The translations under genes were made by a program, and so were the position numbers. 59,208 nt of DNA from an uncultured Lachnospiraceae bacterium (GTDB taxonomy: Bacteria > Bacillota > Clostridia > Lachnospirales > Lachnospiraceae), in contig CAOKPU010000010.1 of NCBI GenBank assembly GCA_948470755.1, forward strand, positions 1-59,208. Reading direction: 5' to 3'. A model generated the notes under the pieces. It worked only from the letters and a program-made list of their open reading frames with translations, did no database searches and was not told where the DNA came from. Position 1 is the first letter of the stretch; every line of letters starts with the position of its first letter. Positions 284 through 38,342 of the stretch are shown in pieces.

Positions 284-1063
284 ATGAAAGAAAAAAACAA
301 AGGTGGAAAAATCCCAGGTAAGGTGTGGCTGCTCATTTCATTTGCGGTAGCTATGGTTTTGTGGTATCTATTGTCTTTGAATCCTAAGACGGCAAGAAGC
401 TTTCCCAATATAATAGTGACGCTCCAGTCTGCGAAGACGATGATTGAAAGGGGGGTATTCTGGAAAGATATCCAGAGCAGCCTGATTTCCGTAAGCGCTG
501 GTTTCGTTTTAGGCTTTGTCTTGTCTTTGCCGACAGCCATATTGATGGCATGGTACCGCCCGGTCAGGAATATTATTGAACCTTGGATACAGTTTGTCAG
601 GAATATCCCGCCGCTGGCATACGTTCCCTTGGTTGTTATTTCTGCAGGCGTAGGCCGGAAGCCTCAGATTATAGTTATTACGATTGCTACTTTCCTGATT
701 ATGACGATTACGATCTATCAGGGCGTTATCAATATTGACGAGACGCTGATCAAGGCGGCGAGGGTGCTTGGAGCTACGGATAAGGATATCTTTTTAAAAG
801 TTATTGCCCCGGCGACCCTTCCGTTCATTATGACAGCCGTGCGGCTTGGCGCGTCGGTTGCCTTGACAACGCTGATCGCAGCGGAGTCTACGGGTGCAAG
901 CGCGGGCCTTGGGATGCGTATCCGTTCCTTGAACAACAGCTTCGAGTCGGAGCCGATGCTGCTGTACATTATTATCATCGGTATTATTGGCATTACGGTA
1001 GAAAAGGTGATTAAATTATTAGAAAGGAAACTGACGGGATGGCAAGAGAAGAGAGAAATATAA
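284..1063 (+). CDS. ABC importer permease (SsuC/TauC/NrtB type)
   Basis: A 259-residue inner-membrane permease of the nitrate/sulfonate/taurine import family. It has an N-terminal membrane segment at about residues 15-32 and several further hydrophobic segments. The cytoplasmic EAA loop (AARVLGATDKDIF...LP, about residues 158-181) contacts the ATPase. AAGGA at 271-275 sits 8 bases before the ATG. The 3' end overlaps the ATPase gene by 25 bases, indicating translational coupling. It is the membrane subunit for the lipoprotein encoded at 1903. The substrate cannot be read from sequence; organic sulfur or nitrogen compounds and thiamine precursors are all known for this family. Confidence 0.9.
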   Translation: MKEKNKGGKIPGKVWLLISFAVAMVLWYLLSLNPKTARSFPNIIVTLQSAKTMIERGVFWKDIQSSLISVSAGFVLGFVLSLPTAILMAWYRPVRNIIEPWIQFVRNIPPLAYVPLVVISAGVGRKPQIIVITIATFLIMTITIYQGVINIDETLIKAARVLGATDKDIFLKVIAPATLPFIMTAVRLGASVALTTLIAAESTGASAGLGMRIRSLNNSFESEPMLLYIIIIGIIGITVEKVIKLLERKLTGWQEKREI

Positions 1064-1830
1064 AGTTAAAGATTGACAATGTAAAGAAAATTTACAATTC
1101 CCGCAATGGGGAGATGATTGCCTTAAACGGTGTGAACCTTGATATTTATGAGAATGAGTTTATTTGCGTGGTAGGGCCTTCCGGCTGTGGGAAGTCCACG
1201 CTTTTGAATATTATCGCCGGGCTGCTTGAGCCGACTTCCGGTTCGGTGTATTGTGACGGCAAGGAAGTGAAAGGGACCGGGACGGAAAGGGGAGTAGTAT
1301 TCCAGCAGTACGCATTGTTCCCTTGGATGACGGTAAAGAAGAATGTTTTATTTGGTTTGAACCTTCAGGGGATTAAGGGTGCGGAAGCGGAAGAAAAAGC
1401 GATGAAATACATAAAAATGGTACAGCTTGAAGATTTTGTGGATCATTATCCAAAGGAGCTGTCCGGAGGTATGAAGCAGAGGGTTGCCATAGCAAGGGCG
1501 TATGCGGTAAATCCTTCCGTCCTTTTGATGGATGAGCCTTTCGGCGCGCTGGATGCGCAGACAAGGACGCAGTTACAGACGGAATTGTTGGAAACATGGG
1601 AAAAAGAGCAGAAAACCTGTTTCTTTATTACCCATGATGTGGATGAAGCGATTATTTTGGCGCAAAAAGTTATTATCATGAGCGCAAGGCCGGGCCGGAT
1701 TAAGGAAATCGTAGATGTGGACATACCTTATCCGCGTACTCAGGAGACGAAGATGGCCCCGGAATTCCTGGATTTGAAAAACCATATCTGGGGACAGGTA
1801 TACCAGGAATATTTGGAGGTAAGGAAGTAA
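1039..1830 (+). CDS. ABC importer ATPase (SsuB/TauB/NrtD type)
   Basis: A 263-residue cytoplasmic ATPase that powers the permease. All motifs are intact: Walker A GPSGCGKST from residue 46, Q-loop in VVFQQYALFPW (about 87-96), signature LSGGMKQR at 141, Walker B VLLMDE at 161-166 and H-loop His199. The C-terminal PGRIKEIVDVDIPYPR stretch is typical of the nitrate/taurine ATPases. The start lies inside the permease gene, with AGAAAGGA upstream. It belongs to one transcription unit with the permease and the downstream lipoprotein gene. Confidence 0.93.
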   Translation: MAREERNIKLKIDNVKKIYNSRNGEMIALNGVNLDIYENEFICVVGPSGCGKSTLLNIIAGLLEPTSGSVYCDGKEVKGTGTERGVVFQQYALFPWMTVKKNVLFGLNLQGIKGAEAEEKAMKYIKMVQLEDFVDHYPKELSGGMKQRVAIARAYAVNPSVLLMDEPFGALDAQTRTQLQTELLETWEKEQKTCFFITHDVDEAIILAQKVIIMSARPGRIKEIVDVDIPYPRTQETKMAPEFLDLKNHIWGQVYQEYLEVRK

Positions 1831-1902: not shown

Positions 1903-3012
1903 ATGAAAAAAGTATTAAGTTTGCTGTTAACTCTGGCAATGGTAGCGACTTTTGTTGGATGTGGAAACACACAGGAACCCGCAGCAGAGCCCGCAGCAAC
2001 AACAGAGGAGGCGGCTCCCGCAGAAGAAGCGGCTCCGGCAGAGGAGGCAGCTCCTGCTGAAGAAGCGGCTCCCGCAGAAGAAGCGGCAGCAGAAGAAAGC
2101 TATGACCCTGTAACTTTAAATGTTGCTTATATGCCTAACTATGGAAGCCTATGGTCGGTGCTTACGGCAAAAGAAAAAGGCTTTTTTGAAGAAGTCGGCA
2201 TTACGGTTAATATGGTTGAGTTTGCAGACGGCCCTACTATTATTGCAGCTATGGAATCCGGCAGCATTGATATCGGTTATATTGGACAGGGCGCACATAA
2301 GCTTTGTATCAATGGCCAGGCGTCTATTTTTGCCCTTTCCCATATTTCTAACGGCGATGCACTGATCGGCGGCCCTGGAATAGCGAAAGTGGAAGATTTG
2401 ACAGGAAAGAAAGTGGCATATTCTTCCGGAAGTTCCAGCGAAGACATACTTGTAAACTCTTTGAAAGCAGCAGGCATGTCCATGGATGATATCGAAGCGG
2501 TTGATATGGATGCATCCGCAATCGTTACGGCAATGCTTTCCGGCGGCGTAGACGCATGTGCAACATGGTCGCCTAACAGCCTGAAAATCTTAGAAGAGAT
2601 GAGCGATGCAACAAAACTGACAGATAACATGACATTTTCCGATACGACGGTATCCCTCGCAAGCTGGATTGTAATGCCTTCCTATGCGGAAGCAAACAGG
2701 GATATCCTTGTCAGGTTCACAAAAGCGCTTTTCAAAGCAATGGATTATGCGGCGGATGAACATTATGACGAAGTAGCTCAGTATGTAGCAACACAGGTGG
2801 CTCAAGATTACGACAGTGTATATGAGCAGAGGGGTGATGCGGACTGGCTGACAGGTAAGGAAGTTTCCGAAGGCGCGGCAAACGGTGAAGTGGAAAAATA
2901 TTACGAAATCCAGAAGCAGGGCTTTGTAGACGCCGGTGCGGTGGAAGCTGATCCGGTTCCCGCAGTTTCCGATTATGTAATGCTTGATGTTATGGTAGAA
3001 GCAGGACAGTAA
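1903..3012 (+). CDS. ABC importer substrate-binding lipoprotein (SsuA/NMT1-like)
   Basis: A 369-residue extracellular lipoprotein that delivers ligand to the permease. The signal peptide ends in lipobox FVGC with Cys20 as the lipidation site. A low-complexity linker (about residues 24-66) contains repeated AAPAEE units. The binding domain then begins with [11 protein letters not shown] and runs to the end. GGAGG at 1891-1895 is a strong ribosome binding site. The whole binding domain is paralogous to the C-terminal half of the chemoreceptor at 5590: [30 protein letters not shown] and YEIQ recur in the same order. The ligand is unknown. Confidence 0.9.
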   Translation: MKKVLSLLLTLAMVATFVGCGNTQEPAAEPAATTEEAAPAEEAAPAEEAAPAEEAAPAEEAAAEESYDPVTLNVAYMPNYGSLWSVLTAKEKGFFEEVGITVNMVEFADGPTIIAAMESGSIDIGYIGQGAHKLCINGQASIFALSHISNGDALIGGPGIAKVEDLTGKKVAYSSGSSSEDILVNSLKAAGMSMDDIEAVDMDASAIVTAMLSGGVDACATWSPNSLKILEEMSDATKLTDNMTFSDTTVSLASWIVMPSYAEANRDILVRFTKALFKAMDYAADEHYDEVAQYVATQVAQDYDSVYEQRGDADWLTGKEVSEGAANGEVEKYYEIQKQGFVDAGAVEADPVPAVSDYVMLDVMVEAGQ

Positions 3013-3059: not shown

Positions 3060-3096
3060 TTGAGAGTAGTCTGCCTTTATGGTATACTACTCTCAA
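3060..3096 (+). promoter_or_regulatory. Promoter with overlapping palindromic operator for the histidine kinase
   Basis: -35 TTGAGA (3060-3065) and -10 TATACT (3083-3088) are separated by 17 bases. An 11-bp perfect inverted repeat, TTGAGAGTAGT (3060-3070) and ACTACTCTCAA (3086-3096), covers both hexamers. This geometry fits a dimeric repressor site and gives the kinase-regulator-receptor genes their own promoter. The regulator is not identified. Confidence 0.6.
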
Positions 3097-3155
3097 GTAC
3101 ATATTGGCTTGTTGCCGCAAAGCCGTACAGTAGCGGGAAAAGGAGGGAAGGCCAT

Positions 3156-4655
3156 ATGCTGGTTTTATTGCTGGGGGTTTTTATGATTGCTTCCGGTTTT
3201 GTGCTGTACAGAAAAAGAAGCATGGAATCCTTTTTCCTCTCAGGGATGTGCATCAGCCTGATGCTTGAGTTTTGCGGCATTTTAATTTTTGTGGCCAAAA
3301 AAGGCGGTTATTCCAGAGAAATGCTGGAATTCCTTTTTGTATCGATAGAGCTTAAAACCAAAATTCAATACTTGGTAATCCCGCTGAATGTAATCGGTTA
3401 TATGATAGCCCTAGGAAGATATCTGTTTCCTTTTTTCCTGTTGCGGATAGCGATGCGTTATTCTATGATTTCCGCGATACGTAAGGATACTTTAGTGAAA
3501 AAAATTTCTGTTATTTTACCGGCGATGTCTTTGATCGTTTATTATCCTGGCATATATAAAGCAGTGACGGTGGACCGGCCCAAGCTGCAGGAATTTCTGG
3601 CCGAGTTTTCTTATTTCTGGATCCTGTTGTATATATGCATTGCATTGATTTTACTGGTTCACGAATATTTTTCTATTACAATGGTGTTTTTCCGGCGCCA
3701 GTTCAGCCTGATCGTGATATGCATGATTGCGATTTCCGGTTTATATCTGCTATATTGCGGACAGGATCCCGGACAGGTTTACCGGTTTTATCATGCTTCA
3801 TATAAATGGAAGAGGGGAATTGGATATTTGCAGCATATGTGGGACATTAAAGCATATTACCTGTTGATGCTGGTGAATGTGGTCTGCGGGACTTTGGGTT
3901 TTATCAGCCTGCTTCGTTATACACAGGAAAACTATGCAAATGATATGGAAGAAGTGGTTTTGGAGAGAAAATACAATACCGCCCGGGTAGGGACTTTAGT
4001 ATTTGTCCATAGCACGAAAAACCAATTGCTGGCAAACCGCGTGATTTTTAAGCGCTTGAACGGCCTGAATATGAATAAAGAAGAAGAGGTGCAAAAGGCG
4101 AGGGAGTATATTGCCGTCCTGGAAGATATCAATGAAGCGCTGCTGGAACGGATGGAGGAGTTGTACCGTTCGGTAAAGTCCAGTTCTATTTATATGGTTT
4201 CCTGCCGCTTAGAGGAAATCGTAGCGAATGCTTTGGAGCGGTTTCATAATAAATGCCCGGACGTGTCCGTAGAGGTGGTGCTGGAATCGGATGCGCCTGT
4301 TTTGGCGGACAAGACGCATTTATGCGAGGCTATATATAATCTGTTGATCAATGCGCAGGATGCGGTAGATGCGGCGGAAAAGGGGAGTGAAGGGAAGGTT
4401 TCCCTATTGAGCCATGATGAAAGGCTTTATACGGTAATCGAAGTCAGGGACAATGGGGTGGGGATACCAAAAGCAACGATGAAAAAGATATTCGAGCCGT
4501 TTTATACGAGTAAGAACAGGAATCATAACTGGGGGATGGGACTGTATTACGTAAGAGCGATCGTAAAGGGCCATTTGGGAAGTTTGAGGGTTGAGAGCAA
4601 AGAGGGGGAAGGCAGCAGTTTTTATATTTTATTGCCGAAGTATATGTCGGTTTAA
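3156..4655 (+). CDS. Membrane sensor histidine kinase
   Basis: A 499-residue kinase. I chose ATG 3156 because AGGAGGG (3141-3147) precedes it by 8 bases; an in-frame upstream start at 3060 would run through the promoter. The N-terminal half holds multiple hydrophobic segments and no obvious large extracellular domain. The phosphoacceptor is probably His285 in VHSTKNQL. The ATPase core has an N box (LLINAQDAV), G1 (DNGVGIP), F box (EPFYTSK) and G2 (WGMGLYYV). It pairs with the regulator at 4855 and lies between the importer and the receptor fusion, so it probably controls or senses the same nutrient. Confidence 0.88.
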   Translation: MLVLLLGVFMIASGFVLYRKRSMESFFLSGMCISLMLEFCGILIFVAKKGGYSREMLEFLFVSIELKTKIQYLVIPLNVIGYMIALGRYLFPFFLLRIAMRYSMISAIRKDTLVKKISVILPAMSLIVYYPGIYKAVTVDRPKLQEFLAEFSYFWILLYICIALILLVHEYFSITMVFFRRQFSLIVICMIAISGLYLLYCGQDPGQVYRFYHASYKWKRGIGYLQHMWDIKAYYLLMLVNVVCGTLGFISLLRYTQENYANDMEEVVLERKYNTARVGTLVFVHSTKNQLLANRVIFKRLNGLNMNKEEEVQKAREYIAVLEDINEALLERMEELYRSVKSSSIYMVSCRLEEIVANALERFHNKCPDVSVEVVLESDAPVLADKTHLCEAIYNLLINAQDAVDAAEKGSEGKVSLLSHDERLYTVIEVRDNGVGIPKATMKKIFEPFYTSKNRNHNWGMGLYYVRAIVKGHLGSLRVESKEGEGSSFYILLPKYMSV

Positions 4656-4854: not shown

Positions 4855-5565
4855 ATGGGGGCGGATGAAAAAATGGAAGAAAAAAAAGATGTTGAAAAGA
4901 TTAAGATTATGATTGCGGATGATTTTCCGCTTCTTTTGGAAGATATGTGTGAACTGATTGATGGCCAGGAAGATATGAAAGTAGTAGGGACGGCCAATAG
5001 CGGGAAACAGATTGTGGATTTGGCGAAGGAGACGGAATTTGATATTATTCTTATGGATATCGAAATGGAAAATCTTAATGCCGGCATTACGGCAACGGAA
5101 CAAATCCGTGAACAGTTGGGAAATGTAAATATTATATTTCTGACGGTGCATGATACAAATGAAATGATTTTAACGGCTATGGGGGCCGGGGCGGTTGATT
5201 ACATTGTAAAAGGATGCGGGGAAGAGGAGATATTAAACCACATAAGAAACGCTTATGCGGGCAATCCGATCATGGAACGCAAAGTACATGATGTTGTGAT
5301 GCAGGAATATGTCAGATTGCAGAAAAGCGAAAAAAGCCTGCTTTTCTTCATTCATAATATATCCCGGTTGACGGCGACGGAAAGGGAATTGATCAAAAAG
5401 CTGCTGGAAGGGAAAAACATCAAGGAGATAGCAAAAGAAAGATGTGTGGAGACGGTGACTGTAAAAACACAGATTAAGGGTTTGTTGAGGAAGTTCGGAT
5501 GCAGCCGGACGAAAGAAGTGATCAAAATTATCAGTGACTTAAATATTACGCATTTATTCTTATAA
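4855..5565 (+). CDS. LuxR/NarL-family response regulator
   Basis: A 236-residue regulator (230 if ATG 4873 is used, which has a G-rich stretch 8 bases upstream). The receiver domain has acidic pair Asp22-Asp23, phosphoacceptor Asp68 in IILMDIEM and Lys in DYIVKG. The C-terminal helix-turn-helix is in LTATERELIKKLLEG...IAKERCVETVTVKTQI. It is presumably phosphorylated by the kinase at 3156 and acts on transcription of this cluster. Its gene is separated from the kinase gene by a family 2 palindrome and lies 24 bases before the receptor gene. Confidence 0.9.
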   Translation: MGADEKMEEKKDVEKIKIMIADDFPLLLEDMCELIDGQEDMKVVGTANSGKQIVDLAKETEFDIILMDIEMENLNAGITATEQIREQLGNVNIIFLTVHDTNEMILTAMGAGAVDYIVKGCGEEEILNHIRNAYAGNPIMERKVHDVVMQEYVRLQKSEKSLLFFIHNISRLTATERELIKKLLEGKNIKEIAKERCVETVTVKTQIKGLLRKFGCSRTKEVIKIISDLNITHLFL

Positions 5566-5589
5566 GATAAAGACATAAAGGAGAGCCAT

Positions 5590-7530
5590 ATGAGATTGTT
5601 TGCAAATAAAAGACAGAATAAAACAGAAGCAGGAAGAGTAAACGCAAAACAGGACATGCAGGAAAGGCTGTCTGACCAAATAAGTGTGAAATTAAACAAA
5701 CTAAACAGGAACGTATTGGAAATGAACTATATTGCGGACGATACGAATGTGGCAATTAATGCAGTGGGCAATTCCATAGACGTCATTAATGACGGGAACA
5801 GTGAATTGGCAACGCGTACAAAAGAGATTAACCATATTGCGCTGAAAATAGGGAATAATATTGAAAAGACAGGCAGATATGTGCAGGAACTGGACGAGGC
5901 AACCCAGAATATGCTTAACAGCAATGAAGAAGTCATAGGGATCTTTCGCGAACTGATAGAAGAAAATGCCGATACGCAGAGCTGTATCCGTGAGATTGCG
6001 GTAAATACGATGGAAACGAACAGCGCTACGAAGGAAATACAGCAGGCGATCGATATGATTAATAACATTGCAAGCAAAACGAATTTGCTGAGCCTTAATG
6101 CATCAATAGAAGCGGCGAGGGCGGGGGAAGCCGGAAGGGGATTTTCCGTTGTTGCAGGGGAAATCCGCGCATTGGCAGAGCAGAGCAGGCAAAGCGCGGA
6201 AACGATCGAAAAAATCATCCATACACTGGAAGAAAAATCCAACAAGTCGGTATCCAATATCCAAACCGTGCAGAATGCTTTTCAAAAGCAGACGGAAAGC
6301 CTGGAAAAAACGGATGGAATGGTAGGGCAGGCAAACCTTCTGATCCAGGATGTGGCAGGAAAAGTAAAGCAGATTGAAGCCAATTCCAGGGAGTTGGAAG
6401 AGGGGAAGGATTATATTATTGAAAATATGGCTTCGCTGGAAAACCTGAGCGAAAGCAATTATTCCGCAACGGAGAATATTGTCCATCGTTTTAAGAACAT
6501 TGTGAGAAACGCGTTAGGGATCAGGGAGAAATCTTTGGCGGTAACAGACATCTATGATGAGATGAAAAATGTCTGCAGCGTAGAAGCCGGGAATGGGAAA
6601 AGAAAAGCAAGAACAGGGCCGGAAGAAATCCATGTGGCCTATATGCCGAATTATGGCAGCCTTTGTGCGGTCGTGCCGGCAATTAAAATGGGGTATTTTG
6701 CAAGGGAGGATTTGGCGGTAAAGCTTCATCCATATGCCAATGGGCTGGAGATCATCAAAGCGATGGAAGAGGGGGCGATCGATTTTGGCTATATAGGCAA
6801 TGGAGCGCATAAATTCTGCATCAAGGGAAGGGCCAGCATTGTCATAATGTCCCATTTATCCAATGCGGAGGCTATTATTGGAAACCGGAAGCATGAGATA
6901 CGCACGATTGCCGATCTCCGGGGAAGGCAGATAGGGAATGTGGAAGGAGCATCCAGTGAGAATATTTTACGCATTGCTTTGGAAACGGAAGGGATTTCTT
7001 TTGATGATGTACGATTGATCAATATGAAGCCGGAAGAAGTAGTGGAGGCGATGATGCGGGGAAGTATTGATGCTTGTGCACTGTGGTCGCCTTATACATT
7101 GGAGGTGTTAAAACAGCTTGGCAACGACGCGGTGGTTATGGCAAATAATATGTCTTATTCCCATAAAACGGCATCTATTTCTTCCTGGATCACGCTTCCC
7201 GGATATGCGAAAGAACATCCGGATTTGGTGCTGCGTTTTACAAGGGCCATTTATGGCGGGATGAATTACAGGGCGGTAGAGAATAATGTAAGAAAAGTGG
7301 CGGACTGGATCGCTGAGGTGACGGACATCGATAAGGCGAACGCTTTTGAGCAAAGAAAAGATGCCCAATGGCTGACGTCAGGGTATGTGAGCGTAGGCGC
7401 GGAGAATGGGGATGTATCCAGATTCTATGAGATACAACAAAAAGAATTCCTGGAATCCGGCGATGTGGACAGATTTGTGCCTGTGGAACAGTATGTGTTG
7501 TTAGGCAATATGAAAAAAGCTGCCCGGTAG
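5590..7530 (+). CDS. Soluble chemoreceptor fused to a transporter-type binding domain
   Basis: A 646-residue protein with no signal peptide and no hydrophobic membrane segment, so probably cytoplasmic. Residues ~25-335 are a long helical methyl-accepting signalling region. The conserved hairpin tip [20 protein letters not shown] and [20 protein letters not shown] (about residues 156-196) is the CheA/CheW contact. From Ile347 to the end is a complete SsuA/NMT1-like binding domain. By eye about half the residues match the lipoprotein at 1903 over the first 85 positions, and the C-terminus also aligns. AAGGAG precedes the ATG. I infer that it senses the imported ligand inside the cell and signals to chemotaxis. 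An alternative is a non-chemotactic scaffold. Confidence 0.88.
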
Positions 7531-7560: not shown

Positions 7561-8382
7561 TTAAAGGTTTTCCAGAAGAATAGGAGCCAGGCCGTCGTGG
7601 TCGTTGTCGGTCAGGGTAATCCGATTGGCAGCCTGTTTTACATAGTCAGCGGCATTTTGCATGGCGATGCCTATGGAGGCGGCCTGCAGCATGGAGATAT
7701 CGTTGGCTTCATCGCCGGCAGCCAATGAGCGGGAAACAGGAATGTTCAACAAGGAACATAATTTTTGCACGGCGGCTCCTTTGCCGGAAGAAGCCGGGAA
7801 GATTTCCAAGTATTTATCATTGGAGTATAACAGGTTTACTTCATCTTTTACGAGAGGGAGAAGGGTTTGCCTGAAATGCTCCAATTTTCCTTTGTCATGG
7901 ATCTCAATGGCGATGCATTTACAAGGCTCCTTATCAAGGACGCTTAAGACGTCTTTATTGATTATGACAGGAGTAAGGATATTCCGCCGGTAAAAGAGAA
8001 GCTGTTCGTTATCTTCAGGGCTGACGATATGGGTATCCGTATACGTATGGCAGTGGATGCCTTGCTCTTTGGCGGTTTTTAAGATCAGGGCTGTCTGCGG
8101 ATAGGTAAGCGCAGTACGGGACAGGATCCTTTTGTTTTCGCAGTCATAGATTTCCCCGCCGTTGCATCCGATCAAATACATACCGGGAAAATCAAGGCCA
8201 AGGGAAGTCCGTACGTGATTTACACTTTCGATGGCCCTCCCGGAGCTTAGGACGAGTTTATGTCCGGCGTCCGTCCATTGCTGCAGGGCCTGCCTGGTAG
8301 CCGGGGTAATTTCTTTTCCGGTGGTTAAGAGAGTGCCGTCCAAATCTGTAAAAAAAATCTTAGGGTTATTTTGCTGGTTCAT
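7561..8382 (-). CDS. Cof-type HAD-family sugar-phosphate/cofactor phosphatase
   Basis: A 273-residue HAD hydrolase of the Cof/YidA type. Motif I is FFTDLDGTLL near the N-terminus (the two Asp are nucleophile and acid/base). Motif II is LSSGRA. The motif III lysine lies in ASSGKGAAVQ and motif IV is AAGDEANDISML. ATG 8382 is preferred because GGAG lies 6 bases before it; a TTG 12 bases earlier is part of that site. The gene overlaps the end of the PHP gene by 17 bases, so the two are cotranscribed. The substrate is unknown. Confidence 0.88.
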   Translation of the reverse strand: MNQQNNPKIFFTDLDGTLLTTGKEITPATRQALQQWTDAGHKLVLSSGRAIESVNHVRTSLGLDFPGMYLIGCNGGEIYDCENKRILSRTALTYPQTALILKTAKEQGIHCHTYTDTHIVSPEDNEQLLFYRRNILTPVIINKDVLSVLDKEPCKCIAIEIHDKGKLEHFRQTLLPLVKDEVNLLYSNDKYLEIFPASSGKGAAVQKLCSLLNIPVSRSLAAGDEANDISMLQAASIGIAMQNAADYVKQAANRITLTDNDHDGLAPILLENL

Positions 8383-9313
8383 AGTTTTCTCCAAATGTGT
8401 CGTTCTGGTTTGCCCGCTTTAGGGCGGTTTTAAGATGGGTGAGGACTTCTTCAGGGACAAACAGCCTGCCGTAACCGGTGGCCAATTCGAGTCCGGGCTT
8501 GGTAGAACCGTGGAAATCGGACCCTCCGCTGATGCATAAGCCGTATTTCTTTGCCAGAGAGCGCATATGACGTTCATCCGATGGCTGGTAAGAACTGTAA
8601 ATAGCTTCTATGCCGAGCAGCCCATTGCCGGCCAATGTTTTCACCAAAGCATCCAAATGCTCATCGCCCATGCGGTAAAGGGGCGGATGGGCGAGGACGG
8701 GGATCCCGCCGGCTTTTCGGATAAGCTGTACGGCCTGGGAGGGGGTGACTTTTTCCCTTGGCACGAAATATTTGGCATGGTCGCCGATATAGCGTTCAAA
8801 TGCTTCCGCCATGCTTTTTACATATCCATGTTGAAAAAGGTATTTGGCATAGTGTCCTCTGGTGATGACGGAACCCGGAAAGGCATCTTGTAGTTTTTGA
8901 TAAGAAATATCCATGCCAGCCTCTTGCAGCCCGGCGCACATTTTCCGGTTCCGCAATGTACGGGAATCGACGAAATCCTGAATCTTCTGCTTGAAAAGAG
9001 GGGTTTCGTAGTCAATGCAAAGCCCAAGGATATGGATATCTTTTTTGTTGTATTCCGTAGAAAATTCGATGCCGGGAATCACTTCAAGGGGAAGTGGTTC
9101 CTGCCCGTTGGCGGACGCAGGGATATGCCCGGAAGATAGTTCATGATTATATCTTGCCGCCGCTTCCATAGCCTCGGGAATCCCTTCTGTCGTATCGTGA
9201 TCCGTAAGGGCAAAGGCGGAAAGCCTTTTTTGCACAGCCAGCGCAACAAGCTGGGAAGGCGTCAGGCTTCCGTCGGATTTATTGGAATGTACGTGCAGGT
9301 CTACGATGTTCAT
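8366..9313 (-). CDS. PHP-domain phosphoesterase (YciV/TrpH-like)
   Basis: A 315-residue metal-dependent phosphoesterase. The PHP motifs run in order: VDLHVHSNKSDGS at the N-terminus, LTDHDTTEG, PGIEFST, a central TRGHYAKYL, AHPPLY and SGGSDFHG near the C-terminus. These supply the His and Asp ligands of a multinuclear metal site. Characterised relatives hydrolyse 3',5'-nucleoside bisphosphates or trim RNA 5' ends. I chose ATG 9313 because an AAGGAG site precedes it; an upstream in-frame ATG overlaps that site. It lies 29 bases after the ABC-F gene and overlaps the phosphatase gene. Confidence 0.88.
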   Translation of the reverse strand: MNIVDLHVHSNKSDGSLTPSQLVALAVQKRLSAFALTDHDTTEGIPEAMEAAARYNHELSSGHIPASANGQEPLPLEVIPGIEFSTEYNKKDIHILGLCIDYETPLFKQKIQDFVDSRTLRNRKMCAGLQEAGMDISYQKLQDAFPGSVITRGHYAKYLFQHGYVKSMAEAFERYIGDHAKYFVPREKVTPSQAVQLIRKAGGIPVLAHPPLYRMGDEHLDALVKTLAGNGLLGIEAIYSSYQPSDERHMRSLAKKYGLCISGGSDFHGSTKPGLELATGYGRLFVPEEVLTHLKTALKRANQNDTFGENYEPAK

Positions 9314-13455: not shown

Positions 13456-13620
13456 GATTCCGCGAAGCGGGATCATGGGGGTTAGGTTGAAAAATCAGCT
13501 TGATAGCTGATTTTATCAATCGGCTATTTGTGCCGGAGCATCACAAATAGCCCCGATGGCAGACGCAAATCTGATATTTGCGTCGCCCCGTCGCGTAAAC
13601 GCTCCGGAATGGGGGTTAGT
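13456..13620 (+). repeat. Family 1 hairpin-mosaic repeat, copy 2 (leader of 13621)
   Basis: Bases 13456-13474 are GATTCCGC-GAA-GCGGGATC, keeping pairing through a G-T wobble, then ATGGGGGTTAG. Further stems follow: AAAATCAGCT/AGCTGATTTT (13491-13514), GGCTATTTGTG/CACAAATAGCC (13522-13552), GACGCAAAT/ATTTGCGTC (13562-13584) and CCG..GCG/CGC..CGG. It ends ATGGGGGTTAGT directly before the ATG at 13621. The 141 bases 13483-13623 match 38205-38345 with one difference. The gap 13274-13455 before it shows nothing except an isolated TATAAT at 13392. Confidence 0.9.
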
Positions 13621-38204: not shown

Positions 38205-38342
38205 TAGGTTGAAAAATCAGCTTGATAGCTGATTTTATCAATCGGCTATTTGTGCCGGAGCATCACAAATAGCCCCGATGGCAGACGCAAATCTGATATT
38301 TGCGTCGCCCCGTCGCGTAAACGCTCCGGAATGGGGATTAGT
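38205..38342 (+). repeat. Family 1 hairpin-mosaic repeat, copy 4 (leader of the Sfp gene)
   Basis: Same modules as 13483-13620: hairpins AAAATCAGCT/AGCTGATTTT, GGCTATTTGTG/CACAAATAGCC, GACGCAAAT/ATTTGCGTC and the final CCG..CGG stem, ending ATGGGGATTAGT directly before ATG 38343. The only difference over 141 bases is A for G at 38337. Confidence 0.92.

Follow-up and report, generated by a model that had tools for sequence, protein, structure and literature searches.

What can a chemoreceptor sense when its sensory half resembles the substrate-binding protein (SBP) of an importer and when nothing in it appears to take it out of the cytoplasm? This question is raised by a gene at 5590..7530 (forward strand) of the window, the whole stretch of 59,208 nucleotides that was analysed, from an uncultured Lachnospiraceae bacterium. 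The open reading frame, Pfam matches and alignments define its product as an MCP/NMT1-type fusion of 646 amino acids.

Residues 131-285 of the fusion (5980..6444, forward strand) match the MCPsignal domain in Pfam (PF00015; 111 bits against a cut-off of 34.6), and the helical hairpin around this domain would extend over approximately residues 25-325. The SsuA/NMT1-type binding domain, delimited as residues 344-646 (6619..7527, forward strand) by alignment with a lipoprotein encoded upstream, matches PF09084 (NMT1) at residues 362-560 with 83.2 bits against a Pfam cut-off of 20.5. This lipoprotein (1903..3012) is 43% identical to the binding half over 305 columns (265 bits), and the blocks AYMPNYGSL, GYIGxGAHKxCI, EQRxDAxWLT and YEIQ are common to both. 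The fusion (115.4 bits) and the lipoprotein (131 bits) both score below the cut-off of 163.5 for the SsuA family proper (TIGR01728, NCBI SsuA_fam), and no match to a CZB domain was found in the fusion with Pfam. No membrane segment or signal peptide was seen in the fusion by a simple hydropathy scan (Kyte-Doolittle, 19 residues), which was the sole check for an anchor; the highest mean, 1.13, lies within the binding domain, compared with 1.89 for the signal peptide of the lipoprotein. An export signal and a lipobox are absent from the fusion, although its lipoprotein relative carries a signal peptide. Thus, the C-terminal half is a domain relative of the NMT1/SsuA SBPs and not an importer SBP. 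In a preliminary description of this DNA, a single protein had been proposed in which an MCP signalling domain and a complete NMT1/SsuA-type domain resembling the upstream lipoprotein are joined, with neither signal peptide nor membrane helix, and the Pfam scores, the shared blocks and the low hydropathy all agree with that proposal.

The genes upstream, all on the forward strand, are arranged in the order permease, ATPase, lipoprotein, histidine kinase, regulator, fusion. Open reading frames and profile matches identify an ABC permease of the SsuABC/TauABC type (BPD_transp_1; 284..1063), an ABC ATPase (1039..1830) and, together with the alignment to the fusion, the NMT1/SsuA-type lipoprotein SBP (1903..3012). 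These are followed by a membrane histidine kinase of uncertain start codon (3060..4655; HATPase_c in Pfam, with a hydrophobic N-terminal half read from the sequence) and a response regulator with a receiver and a LuxR-type DNA-binding domain (4855..5565; Pfam). The fusion begins with ATG 24 nt after the stop codon of the regulator, and a ribosome-binding-like AAGGAG, read directly from the sequence, stands before this ATG at 5578..5583 (forward strand). Because of this short gap and this site, and with the next gene (7561-8394) on the opposite strand, the fusion is probably the terminal gene of the operon. A palindrome-rich intergenic repeat occupies positions 1-200 of the window and recurs at 13567-13595 and 38289-38317; the window's contig ends in this repeat, and the genome contains 53 matches to the window's first 230 bases.

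The linkage to an importer extends beyond the window. The preliminary description had suggested asking whether such fusions neighbour a paralogous importer: an importer SBP and ATPase share the locus with the fusion in 10 of 10 fusion loci, and a permease does so in nine, as called by script. A histidine kinase is found in eight of these loci and a response regulator in seven; by ORF calls, L011 and L012 carry the fusion without the pair and L009 without the regulator. An obligate partnership of the fusion with the adjoining kinase and regulator was thus not borne out. At L052:11744-13738 (genome G003), no permease was called beside the importer ATPase and a 537-amino-acid ORF lies there on the opposite strand, possibly through insertion or rearrangement. 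A second importer subtype, whose SBP is 46-49% identical to that of the window, occurs at several loci with or without a fusion, and it is adjoined by a DUF4838 protein of approximately 625 amino acids (L009:4365-6239, L012:13799-15682).

Ten full-length fusions align from end to end, that of the window and those of L009, L010, L011, L012, L013, L049, L050, L051 and L052, the nine others being 47-76% identical to the window's. In this set, L070 is a repeat of L009 and was counted once, and the protein of L069 (G008), which is broken inside its MCP half by the end of the contig, was not counted as a fusion. In the least saturated pair, L051-L052, dN is 0.044 and dS 0.723 for the MCP half (dN/dS approximately 0.06), and 0.034 and 0.490 for the binding half (approximately 0.07); the corresponding values for the lipoprotein are 0.028 and 0.513. 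In 12 of the 14 remaining pairs, dS was undefined in at least one part. Both halves of the fusion are under purifying selection. The ten end-to-end proteins, together with this codon constraint on both halves, exclude a frameshift, chimera or assembly artefact, and the possibility, allowed for earlier, that a frameshift conceals two genes gives way to one gene.

Among 16 genomes of the genus, four carry a full-length fusion, as do 4 of 397 genomes drawn from the family (the window's genome included). Draws from the order (2 of 392), class (1 of 391) and phylum (1 of 398) yielded fusions that were all already in the set; these draws overlap. In the four large ones, no more than three candidates were scored for each genome, and at the strict thresholds used (1e-45 to 1e-60) a fusion whose binding domain is far more divergent could escape notice. 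A scan of genome contigs, which reaches close relatives only, yielded five fusion loci, four from Lachnospiraceae and one from an uncultured bacterium. Within the limits of these draws, the MCP/NMT1 fusion is a rare, lineage-bound architecture.

The origin of the binding domain was addressed by a tree of the domains of both kinds, as had been suggested earlier. In this 43-domain tree, from which L078, the long-branched L075, L082 and five of eight outgroup candidates (their reading frames contained stops) were left out, the fusions form a clade of their own (100/100) within the same SBP family, inside a 37-row set (100/99) that includes 27 importer SBPs of these clusters. The long branches are those leading to the fusion clade (0.73) and to L049, and the tree gives no branching order among the fusions, the G114/G125 pair and the other 25 SBPs. 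Forcing the fusions and eight window-type lipoproteins into one clade costs 44 log-likelihood units (AU p=0.0003, for a group picked with knowledge of an earlier tree), by which duplication within the operon is rejected as the origin of the fusion. The earlier view of the fusion as a duplicate of the transporter's own receptor is therefore only loosely right, since the fusion clade lies outside the lipoproteins of the operon. The tree is most simply explained by a single ancient capture of a member of this SBP family rather than by a recent copying of the neighbour.

Whether the captured domain still has a working pocket can be judged from the residues that surround taurine in TauA, which are named in the excerpts of PMC6906117 available to us. 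Ten TauA positions were placed through a low-identity profile alignment, with TauA numbers counted by hand and all ten letters in agreement, and the columns were compared between 10 fusions and 31 other SBPs. TauA Gly61, Gly79 and Trp176 are identical in all 41 proteins. The Thr132 column holds Ser in 9/10 fusions and 28/31 others, the Gln30 column Met in 10/10 and 30/31, and the Ser32 column Asn in 10/10 and 31/31. At TauA contact positions, Gly385, Gly403, Ser455, Trp499 and Asn354 of the fusion are thus the residues seen in almost every importer SBP, and the loss of ligand-contact residues, raised earlier as a possible objection, was not what was found, as most of these positions are shared by the fusion and the lipoproteins. 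Two positions are fixed differently. The Glu106 column (fusion Glu427) holds Glu in 10/10 fusions and Asp in 30/31 others, and the Ser60 column (fusion Asn384) holds Asn in 10/10 fusions and Asp in 27/31 others; in the same excerpts, Ser60 adjoins the sulfonate-binding Gly61 and Glu106 is a hinge residue (PMC6906117). Further, the Leu204 column has Ile in 9/10 fusions vs Leu in 23/31 others, and the Asp205 column has Ser in 10/10 fusions vs Ala in 21/31 others. When all 311 columns of the domain are compared, with L075 omitted, both groups reach a conservation of at least 90% at 68; the residue is the same at 59 of these and different at nine, and a further 19 columns are conserved in the non-fusion SBPs only. 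Judged by these residues, the fusion appears to keep a functional pocket akin to that of the other SBPs, slightly but consistently altered, and its specificity may have been retuned at Asn384 and Glu427. The two differently fixed contacts mean that an identical ligand for fusion and lipoprotein is not assured. A ligand that is TauA-like in detail is disfavoured because the side-chain contact Gln30 is kept in neither group.

MCP domains work through CheA and CheW. The MCP tip, which we take to be the CheA/CheW contact, is almost invariant in the ten fusions, N165-G179 being invariant. The hairpin was compared with three MCPs (3 of 11 intended sources): it is gapless against L003 of the window's genome (residues 36-295) and L022 of the same genus (residues 35-292), while the CZB-type L007 of the window's genome lacks 14 residues of one arm. 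The fusion may share an array with receptors of the longer class. L007 itself (G000:C49, L007:1030-2463) is a second MCP in which no N-terminal sensor is obvious, and its C-terminal CZB domain gives it a TlpD-like architecture. Two matches to CheA (PF02895) are present in the window's genome (G000). CheA was detected in 6/6 fusion genomes tested vs 11/21 genomes that have the SBP and no detected fusion, a weak contrast (one-sided 0.042, kinship ignored) in which G008, one of the 21, may hold a broken fusion, G061 and G375, among the 11, are weak matches, and the fusion genomes of L010-L013 are not among the six. In genome G114, which has the importer and the cluster of catabolic genes described below and no detected fusion, a 705-amino-acid dCache MCP (L059:2617-4734; HAMP just under the cut-off) sits between LarA-like and NagA-like genes. 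The presence of this MCP within the cluster, a single case, favours swimming as the common output. Apart from L069, no other separate MCP-like ORF was matched among the examined loci.

The genes that recur around the importer give some indication of its substrate. Among 32 fetched loci (L009 and L070 being one contig, some genomes occurring twice and the importer not being present in all), the recurrent families are NagB-like (22), NagA-like (21), a 385-amino-acid class II aldolase (19), LarA-like (17), TIM-like (12), TauE/SafE-type (9), PFK-like (7), DUF4838 (6) and PGI-like (5). The window's genome carries its catabolic set on another contig (G000:C26, L089:245-15760), with aldolase-, NagA-, NagB-, LarA-, TIM-, PFK- and PGI-like genes, the aldolase lying at the contig end; the LarA-like protein and its counterpart in G288 are 97% identical. 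The cluster, which looks like a parallel lower sugar pathway, further includes a LacI-type regulator, a mutarotase-like ORF and a GH3 glycosidase. Because the aldolase lies immediately upstream of the permease in relatives such as L010, L013, L050 and L051, C26 probably adjoins the window in the genome, the two having been separated at the repeat with 53 genome matches. A TauE-type gene directly follows the fusion in six of ten fusion loci, and the window is not among these six.

Comparison of these proteins with well-known enzymes gives a mixed picture. Where the solved NagB 3hn6 reads PTGSSP, the NagB-like protein reads PVG--P, and it has Asn in place of Asp in GIGxDGH; similarly, QHFP replaces HREP of NagA 2vhl in the NagA-like protein. 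The altered residues presumably have roles in phosphate binding and catalysis. The NagB-, TIM-, PGI- and LarA-like proteins fall below NCBI equivalog cut-offs. The NagA-like (307.5 vs 225.65) and PFK-like (428.5 vs 273) proteins lie above theirs, and the aldolase exceeds its NCBI subfamily cut-off (224.4 vs 215.6); a plain GlcNAc-derived sugar thus stays among the candidates. Given the SsuA-type importer and the TauE-type exporter, the lead that we favour is a hexosamine whose acidic group is not phosphate, N-acetylated and perhaps of the sulfo type. This putative assignment to sulfosugar catabolism draws on family matches and two altered motifs. In a term search of a review on sulfoquinovose (PMC12890257), no mention was found of chemotaxis, chemoreceptor, N-acetyl, TauE, ABC transporter or deaminase.

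Taken as a whole, these results are best read as a soluble chemoreceptor that reads a nutrient during its import, to which we would give a probability of about one half. In the proposed mechanism, the MCP hairpin would form a dimeric rod with its tip docked to CheW and CheA, and the SsuA-type domain would sit at the opposite end, where the helices of the hairpin meet. The SsuABC-type importer of the operon would take up the solute, probably an acidic N-acetylated amino sugar, and the cytoplasmic binding domain would close on the imported solute or on an early intermediate. This closure would alter the rod and, through it, the activity of CheA and swimming, so that the cell would track the nutrient solely while importing it.

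The same two contact positions allow another reading: the binding domain would have been retuned to recognise a product made further along the pathway by deacetylation, phosphorylation or cleavage, and the receptor would register catabolic flux rather than the imported compound itself. Asn384 and Glu427, present in every fusion where nearly all other SBPs have Asp, and the long branch to the fusion clade would suit such a shift; however, the replacement of Asp by Glu or Asn is a mild change and 59 of the 68 jointly conserved columns keep the same residue, and we regard this reading as doubtful, if the most credible of the rivals. A more specific form of it is slightly more speculative: an SsuA-type domain captured once, made cytoplasmic and retuned at two contact positions would let the receptor navigate by the catabolic flux of an N-acetylated acidic (sulfo-type) hexosamine pool or its first breakdown product, and the receptor would belong to an undescribed parallel-glycolysis cluster with NagA-, NagB-, PFK-, aldolase-, TIM- and LarA-like proteins and a TauE/SafE-type exporter.

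Two further explanations concern what each half does. The MCP half could act through a second CheA, as G000 has two CheA matches, or through the kinase and regulator of the operon, and control genes instead of the flagellar pathway; this is improbable, given the known route of MCP domains through CheA/CheW and the fusion loci that lack the kinase-regulator pair or the regulator. It is more improbable still that the binding half has ceased to bind a ligand and persists as a docking or dimerising module. The 19 lipoprotein-conserved columns that are relaxed in the fusions could be explained in this way, but most contact positions are invariant in all ten fusions and the dN/dS of the binding half speaks for continued constraint.

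If a soluble receptor that reads its nutrient during import is indeed encoded here, metabolism-dependent chemotaxis would become testable with one defined receptor. To our knowledge, few soluble chemoreceptors have known ligands. In the present case, an importer of the sensor domain's own family and its catabolic genes lie alongside; the choice of candidate ligands is thereby narrowed to a single pathway, and the two homologous domains permit a comparison of sensing inside and outside the cell. The fusion also points to this catabolic cluster.

Among known systems, the SsuA/TauA-type SBPs (NMT1, PF09084) share with the fusion their fold family and several sulfonate-contact positions, whereas the fusion lacks a signal peptide and lipobox, is joined to a signalling domain and falls under the SsuA_fam cut-off. 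Repressors of the LacI/PurR type also use a binding-protein-like domain to sense a ligand within the cell; their domain belongs to another binding-protein family than the fusion's, and their output is DNA binding. Cytosolic signalling proteins that sense through SBP-type domains form a known class, according to the portion of PMC9602780 that was available. The preliminary description, which knew of no characterised example, therefore needs qualification with respect to this class, and for the particular combination it stands in so far as the literature searched described no soluble MCP bearing an NMT1/SsuA-type domain. TlpD of Helicobacter pylori, a soluble MCP with a C-terminal CZB sensor as outlined in excerpts of PMC12871147, resembles the fusion in being anchorless, with the MCP hairpin first and the sensor C-terminal; its CZB domain is a small zinc-binding domain, whereas the SBP-type sensor of the fusion has two lobes and belongs to an importer family. 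Finally, chemoreceptors stimulated by SBPs, such as the E. coli receptor acting with maltose-binding protein (a class treated in the available portion of PMC9602780), likewise have a transporter-type binding protein that feeds a chemoreceptor, but there the SBP is separate and extracytoplasmic, whereas in the fusion it is covalently attached and cytoplasmic.
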